Origin: Sedimenticola thiotaurini
Lineage (GTDB): Bacteria; Pseudomonadota; Gammaproteobacteria; Chromatiales; Chromatiaceae
Assembly: GCA_011051715.1 (NCBI GenBank)
Contig: DRKP01000190.1
Coordinates: forward strand, 1-43,019
Direction: 5' to 3'
Length of the DNA stretch: 43,019 nt
Of this stretch, positions 34,188-37,676 are shown piece by piece. The stretch's first letter is position 1, and every line of letters starts with the position of its first letter. The notes beneath the pieces were generated by a model, which saw only the letters and a list, made by a program, of their open reading frames with translations, searched no databases and was not told the DNA's origin. A program made the position numbers and the translations under genes.

Positions 34188-34946
34188 TCAGGTCGACTGG
34201 CGGCGGCTGCCCCTGTTGGCGTCCCGGTCCAGGATGCCACGCAGACGGTCGATGTCGAGCAGCTGGATGTGCTTGCGCTCCACCTTCAGCAGGCCCTCCT
34301 CCTGGAACCGGGTGAACAGGCGGCTGACGGTCTCCACCGCCAGCCCCAGGTAGCTGCCGATCTCGTGGCGTGACATGCTGAGGTAGAAGTCGGAGGGGGA
34401 GAAACCACGGCGCTTGAACCGCTTGGAGAGGCTCAGGAGGAAGGCGGCCAGCCGCTCCTCGGCGTTCTTCTTGCCGAGCAGCGTGAGCATCTCCTCGTCG
34501 TGGCCGATCTCGCGGCTCAGCAGGCGGTACATCTGGTGCTGCAGGCTGGGGATGCGGGTGCTCAGCTCCTCGAACTCGCCGAACGGGATCTCGCACACCG
34601 CCGAGGTCTCCAGCACCTTGGCGGAGCAGTTGTGGCGCTCGTTCTCGATCGCGTCCAGACCGATCAGCTCGCCCGGCAGATGGAACCCGAGCACCTGTTC
34701 GCCACCCTCCTCGCTGGGGGCGTAGGTCTTCACCGAACCGGTCTTGACGATATAGAGGGCCTGGAACGGGCTGCCCTCGCGAAACAGGTGGTCGCCCCGG
34801 TGCAGGGGGCGGTTGCGGCGGACGATCTGGTCCAGCTTCTCCACGTCCTCCTGCTCCAGCCCCATGGGCAGGCAGAGTGTCGCCAGACTGCAGCTCCTGC
34901 AGGCAATCTTGATGGTCTCGAAAGAGATGACTTTTCTGCCTGTCAC
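34188..34946 (-). CDS. fnr: FNR/ANR-type oxygen-sensing transcription regulator
   Basis: Crp-family regulator active under low oxygen when a [4Fe-4S] cluster is bound. The cluster ligands are all present: CRSCSLATLC supplies Cys16, Cys19 and Cys25, and HNCSAKV supplies Cys107. A cyclic-nucleotide-like beta-roll and dimer helix follow. The recognition helix has ExxSR (VETVSRLFTRFQ), the set that reads TTGAT half-sites. I place the start at the GTG at 34946 (252 residues): Cys spacing then matches Pseudomonas ANR, whereas the longer frame from GTG 34994 would begin 3 nt from an FNR box. It is convergent with dnaQ and divergent from pyrG. Paired FNR boxes upstream suggest autoregulation. Confidence 0.93.
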   Translation of the reverse strand: MTGRKVISFETIKIACRSCSLATLCLPMGLEQEDVEKLDQIVRRNRPLHRGDHLFREGSPFQALYIVKTGSVKTYAPSEEGGEQVLGFHLPGELIGLDAIENERHNCSAKVLETSAVCEIPFGEFEELSTRIPSLQHQMYRLLSREIGHDEEMLTLLGKKNAEERLAAFLLSLSKRFKRRGFSPSDFYLSMSRHEIGSYLGLAVETVSRLFTRFQEEGLLKVERKHIQLLDIDRLRGILDRDANRGSRRQST

Positions 34947-34996
34947 ACGATCACCCGATAAAGTTCCCTGAGGTTGAACGTATTGTGCAGTCACTG

Positions 34997-35010
34997 TTGA
35001 TCTGCATCAA
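34997..35010. promoter_or_regulatory. FNR box 1
   Basis: TTGATCTGCATCAA, a perfect TTGAT-N4-ATCAA consensus site 50 nt upstream of the assigned fnr start, in the fnr-pyrG divergent region. Confidence 0.85.
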
Positions 35011-35018
35011 GTTCCTTT

Positions 35019-35032
35019 TTGACCTGTGTCAA
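35019..35032. promoter_or_regulatory. FNR-type box 2
   Basis: TTGACCTGTGTCAA, symmetric TTGAC-N4-GTCAA, a variant also used by Dnr/NnrR-type relatives. It starts exactly 22 bp from box 1, so the two sites lie on the same DNA face. Confidence 0.65.

Positions 35033-35064: not shown

Positions 35065-37676
<2,612 letters not shown>

Follow-up and report, generated by a model that had tools for sequence, protein, structure and literature searches.

Excerpts of one published account (PMC7349173) describe negative autoregulation of the Escherichia coli fnr gene via an FNR site that spans the transcription start. Excerpts of a second source (PMC3688515) place this site at -0.5 and the site of the E. 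coli ndh gene at -50.5, with both sites repressing. According to the same excerpts, the FNR sites of repressed E. coli promoters range from upstream of the -35 element to the transcription start, and 19 of the 23 activated promoters have a site at -41.5 ± 4. The conserved FNR operator that we describe here upstream of a chromatialean fnr gene is of this already known kind of control, and its paired, clade-specific form appears to be new; the open-licence literature yielded no earlier description of a paired fnr operator, which in itself is weak evidence. The region is probably an fnr operator-promoter wired for negative autoregulation, which has been doubled in one clade.

The fnr locus and its product

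The window (the whole 43,019 nt stretch of DNA that was analysed) carries fnr on the minus strand with pyrG as its divergent neighbour, and the layout described in a first-pass annotation of this DNA, including both possible fnr starts and the distances involved, proved to be correct. The features used in this study are as follows, with positions counted from the first nucleotide of the window.

34188..34946, minus strand: fnr coding sequence, 252 aa, GTG start at 34946 (NCBIfam PRK11161 and alignment with solved FNR)
34951..34956, minus strand: Shine-Dalgarno-like GGGTGA for GTG 34946 (duplex energy)
34975, minus strand: predicted transcription start, plus or minus a few bases, placed from the position of the -10 hexamer
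34982..34987, minus strand: -10-like hexamer, CACAAT, separated by 17 nt from TTGATG in the proximal box
34992..34994, minus strand: in-frame GTG of a longer fnr reading, judged unused (reading frames of relatives)
34997..35010, minus strand: proximal FNR box, TTGATGCAGATCAA on the fnr strand, centred at about -28.5, with a first half that doubles as the putative -35 element
35019..35032, minus strand: distal FNR/Dnr-type box, TTGACACAGGTCAA on the fnr strand, centred at about -50.5 (motif match)
35197..36846, plus strand: pyrG (CTP synthase), ATG at 35197, 164 bp from the distal box

The fnr product scored 295 bits against the NCBIfam model PRK11161 (Fnr), above the cut-off of 228, and its best solved relatives were FNR-type regulators (E = 1.5e-70), aligned along the length of the protein, with the three N-terminal cysteines, the central cysteine and the recognition helix all kept. 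By sequence, the product can be identified as FNR, the 4Fe-4S oxygen-sensing regulator of the Crp/Fnr family, with all four cysteines in place. Among the named organisms of the open genome set, the closest relatives came from the Solemya velesiana gill symbiont, Candidatus Sedimenticola endophacoides and Sedimenticola, and more distant ones from purple sulphur bacteria, including Thiocystis and Marichromatium. Within the family, fnr was present in 174 of 194 genomes, and the analysis covered 154 loci, each from a different genome, which were lined up on the DNA preceding the first cysteine codon; the 20 remaining genomes had the weakest and mostly unlisted matches, and one of these genomes (G006) was read separately, with the extra loci described below. 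The CxxCx5C motif was present in all 154 loci.

The genome also encodes a second FNR-like protein (L002, G000:C7:13838-14497), which is 42% identical to the fnr product and has CxxCx5C in its reading. This protein could use the same boxes as FNR, which counts against an explanation by FNR only. The L002 gene immediately precedes a ccoN-like oxidase gene, and the box TTGATCCACATCAA lies between the two.

Translation start of fnr

The fnr reading frame can be extended to GTG 34994, which is in frame with GTG 34946, and the first-pass annotation had favoured the shorter version. This choice is strongly supported by the relatives, as a start codon was found at the position equivalent to GTG 34946 in 141 of the 154 loci and was the first possible start in 93 of them, and in 82/154 the frame does not remain open as far as the position of GTG 34994. 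The predicted Shine-Dalgarno duplex with the 16S tail was also stronger for 34946 (-7.9 kcal/mol) than for the longer start (-5.1 kcal/mol). The longer start is further disfavoured because the predicted transcript would start downstream of 34994. The comparison thus settles the choice of the fnr start codon.

Paired FNR boxes upstream of fnr

The two FNR boxes reported in the first-pass annotation, TTGATCTGCATCAA at 34997-35010 and TTGACCTGTGTCAA at 35019-35032, are 22 bp apart, and both match TTGAN6TCAA perfectly. No other sites of this type were present in the window, where 0.26 were expected and two or more were obtained in 4 of 100 shuffles. The 3.39 Mb genome contained 34 TTGAN6TCAA sites, versus 18 for the reversed-pattern control, and the next-closest pairs of sites were 39 and 139 bp apart, making the fnr pair the only one this tight; simple arithmetic gives an expectation of about 0.007 for pairs this close among 34 random sites. 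Since the two boxes are the only sites in the window, and no other pair in the genome is closer than 39 bp, we regard the pair as real and not as a product of chance.

Proximal boxes with at most one mismatch were found in 140 of the 154 family loci, with two boxes in 12 loci, one in 128 and none in 14. The paired boxes were always exactly 22 bp apart (12/12), even though both the 8 bp linker between them and the spacing to the start codon (43 to 53 nt from the box) are variable. The first-pass annotation had placed both boxes on the same face of the helix, and this is borne out by a spacing of approximately two helical turns that is invariant in the paired loci.

In a phylogenetic tree, all 12 paired loci were located in one clade of 22 rows (support 100/98), which also contains nine rows of the Sedimenticola group and L070, each having a single box. 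The history of the pair on this tree requires three gains or losses, and is compatible with one gain followed by two losses. In the nine Sedimenticola-group loci (L010, L057-L059, L061-L065) the only box, the proximal one, has degenerated by a single base to either TTGATCCAGAGCAA or TTGATCCAGGGCAA. As these loci combine a one-mismatch proximal box with the lack of a distal box, the system is not indispensable, and the 14 loci without a box likewise count against the autoregulation proposed below. A search for traces of a decayed distal box at -22 in 124 single-box loci gave none above 5/8 matches. Eleven extra loci from 10 genomes, one from the same family and nine from the same class, had a box with no or one mismatch in 6/11 cases, and showed no clear common architecture.

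FNR-type sites were also noted elsewhere. The site preceding a HemN-like radical SAM gene (G000:C63:7307-7320) matches the proximal fnr box at every base. The regions upstream of ccoN-like genes contain a near-invariant second site, TTGACATTTGTCAG or a close variant thereof, in 8/10 cases, located about 105 nt after the FNR box; it was carried by L208, L265, L266, L267, L268, L269, L272 and L274, with L266 having no FNR box.

Promoter geometry

Information content, counted from the first base of the proximal box, showed further conservation at positions 23-28, in the form of a second block, C-A-N-A-A-T. For counting, we used the 136 of the 140 box-bearing loci that are distinct over 60 bases, and 94 of these have a -10-like hexamer 17 nt past the first TTGAT half of the proximal box, compared with a mean of about 2 and a maximum of 10 loci in 200 shuffles, and with 9 loci for the next best offset in the real sequences. 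This count is lowered by at most one by L012, one of the 128 single-box loci, in which the perfect box that was scored lies 41 bp upstream of a one-mismatch box, so that the -10 was sought at the wrong box. The hexamer reads CACAAT or CAAAAT in all 12 paired loci. TTGATC or TTGATG followed by 17 nt and CANAAT has the spacing of a σ70 promoter, and the proximal box is therefore predicted to carry the -35 element. The promoter in the window is weak, with 8/12 consensus bases matched, and a simple consensus promoter scan of the window did not find any fnr promoter. Because the match to the consensus is weak and the plain scan missed the hexamers, identification of the promoter rests on their conservation.

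In 23 loci of a purple sulphur bacterial clade, a different promoter (TTGtaa..17..TAcAAA) was found just upstream, and only 3/23 have kept a strict -10 at the old place. The box is kept in these loci and now begins at about -1 to +4, so that it still overlaps the promoter. The upstream promoter pattern originally matched 24 loci, but one of these, the paired locus L054, was dropped as a chance match. A 28 nt TTG...TTAnAA block is present in 23/23 of the purple sulphur loci, and ends 11 nt before the box in 17/23. This block, cTTGtaaTctgncatgGaTCnGGTTAcAAAa, is conserved about 40 nt upstream of the fnr box in L107 and the 22 others (L013, L016, L020 etc.). Its GATCnGGTTA part is over-conserved for a spacer and is partly palindromic, and hence may be bound by another regulator.

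Proposed autoregulation of fnr

Autoregulation of fnr, as put forward in the first-pass annotation, is supported by the conservation of the box, and a sign can now be proposed for it. We propose repression because the proximal box covers the putative -35 element. Furthermore, the box has kept its place where the promoter has shifted, and there is overlap between the two in either arrangement, so that the box is best read as a repressor site. The centres of the boxes, at about -28.5 and -50.5, do not coincide with the activating position of -41.5, making negative autoregulation the most likely reading.

In the proposed mechanism, fnr would be transcribed from a weak σ70 promoter consisting of TTGATG, 17 nt and CACAAT, with its start at about 34975 and its -35 element formed by the first half of the proximal box. 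At low oxygen, dimers of [4Fe-4S]-FNR would bind to the proximal box and exclude RNA polymerase, and this repression would hold FNR at a set level. The clade-specific second box, located two turns upstream on the same face (about -50.5), would probably add a second FNR dimer, which may cooperate with the first and allow for stronger repression.

A role for nitric oxide was suggested in the first-pass annotation, based on the Dnr-like half-sites of the distal box. This would make the region a dual-input operator, in which the proximal box serves FNR and the distal box serves an NO-responsive Dnr, with fnr expression also following denitrification. The own genome offers several observations in its favour, as the TTGACN4GTCAA class has six members (one for the control), three of which are located upstream of nosZ, of the cytochrome c gene of the norC/norB pair and of a cytochrome c/cytochrome-d1 operon, with the nosZ site differing from the distal fnr box by a single base, while the hemN and ccoN boxes are of the TTGAT type. 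In addition, contig C172 carries a Dnr-like gene (L212:3549-4292), with DNR (3dkw, E = 1.4e-36) as best solved match. These TTGAC boxes and the Dnr-like gene give the Dnr idea a better foundation than it had from the sequence of the window on its own. However, next to the distal fnr box itself, the remaining two of the six sites are at a contig edge and at a place without an identified gene, and the TTGAC half-site is not conserved in the relatives, with the distal box having TTGAT in 9/12 paired loci. In genomes G016 and G067, the distal box is of the TTGAT type although the nosZ sites are of the TTGAC type, and covariation of the distal box with the denitrification boxes was not found across the relatives. 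The Dnr reading is also weakened by published Dnr motifs, which in the available parts of PMC1274295 and PMC5398030 have the same TTGAT consensus as the FNR box. We therefore consider a dual-input operator to be unlikely, and are slightly more doubtful still that the doubled operator is split in this particular species, with FNR occupying the box at the -35 element and Dnr the one at -50.5. If such a split were true, nitric oxide would tune the oxygen sensor, in a family with a fixed fnr operator and a replaced promoter. The contig with the Dnr-like gene also contains a gene for a hemerythrin-domain protein (L212:1138-1704), with the FNR-type site TTGACAAACATCAA near the start of the open frame.

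Positive autoregulation, with FNR activating fnr from one of the boxes, appears improbable. FNR boxes commonly have an activating role, as in the 19/23 activated E. coli promoters with a site near -41.5 given in the excerpts of PMC3688515, and activation from a distal site is possible via the α subunit of RNA polymerase; however, the conserved -10 places the fnr boxes at -28.5 and -50.5, and not at -41.5 or -61.5, and a class II position of the -10-like hexamer, 32-40 nt from the start of the box, was found in only 5/136 loci. Class II activation of fnr was rejected on account of this geometry.

Finally, an effect on pyrG, raised in the first-pass annotation, was not supported, and it is very improbable that the boxes serve pyrG, either by itself or together with fnr: in the window, as in many relatives (seen in 67/154), the two genes form a divergent pair, but the box is near-fixed before fnr while its distance to pyrG spans 135 to 1136 nt, it is still present in 6/9 loci where no pyrG start was found despite at least 1200 nt of upstream sequence, and the pyrG strand lacks a sharp -10 peak (best offset 12/135, versus 94/136 on the fnr strand). 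Control of pyrG by the boxes was rejected in view of the varying distance and the missing promoter peak.

Comparison with known systems

Negative autoregulation by FNR thus remains the preferred reading of the region, which has two aspects of wider interest. Throughout a whole family, an operator has been retained even though its target promoter was rebuilt, and the same operator has been doubled in one clade at an exact two-turn spacing, which makes cooperative repression by FNR and cross-talk with nitric oxide directly testable.

The distal box is similar to Dnr/Anr denitrification boxes, as it resembles the boxes that this genome has at nosZ and norC and those of the nir type, but it differs from these in being part of an fnr promoter, and in that most relatives do not conserve the TTGAC half-site. 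It shares its -50.5 position with the FNR site of E. coli ndh, although ndh is a respiratory gene with one tabulated site in the excerpts of PMC3688515. The closest parallel is E. coli fnr itself, where the FNR site likewise overlaps the fnr promoter and is repressing, according to the excerpts of PMC3688515 and PMC7349173. In contrast to the site at -0.5 in E. coli, the site described here is located on the predicted -35 element, and is accompanied in one clade by a second site 22 bp upstream.
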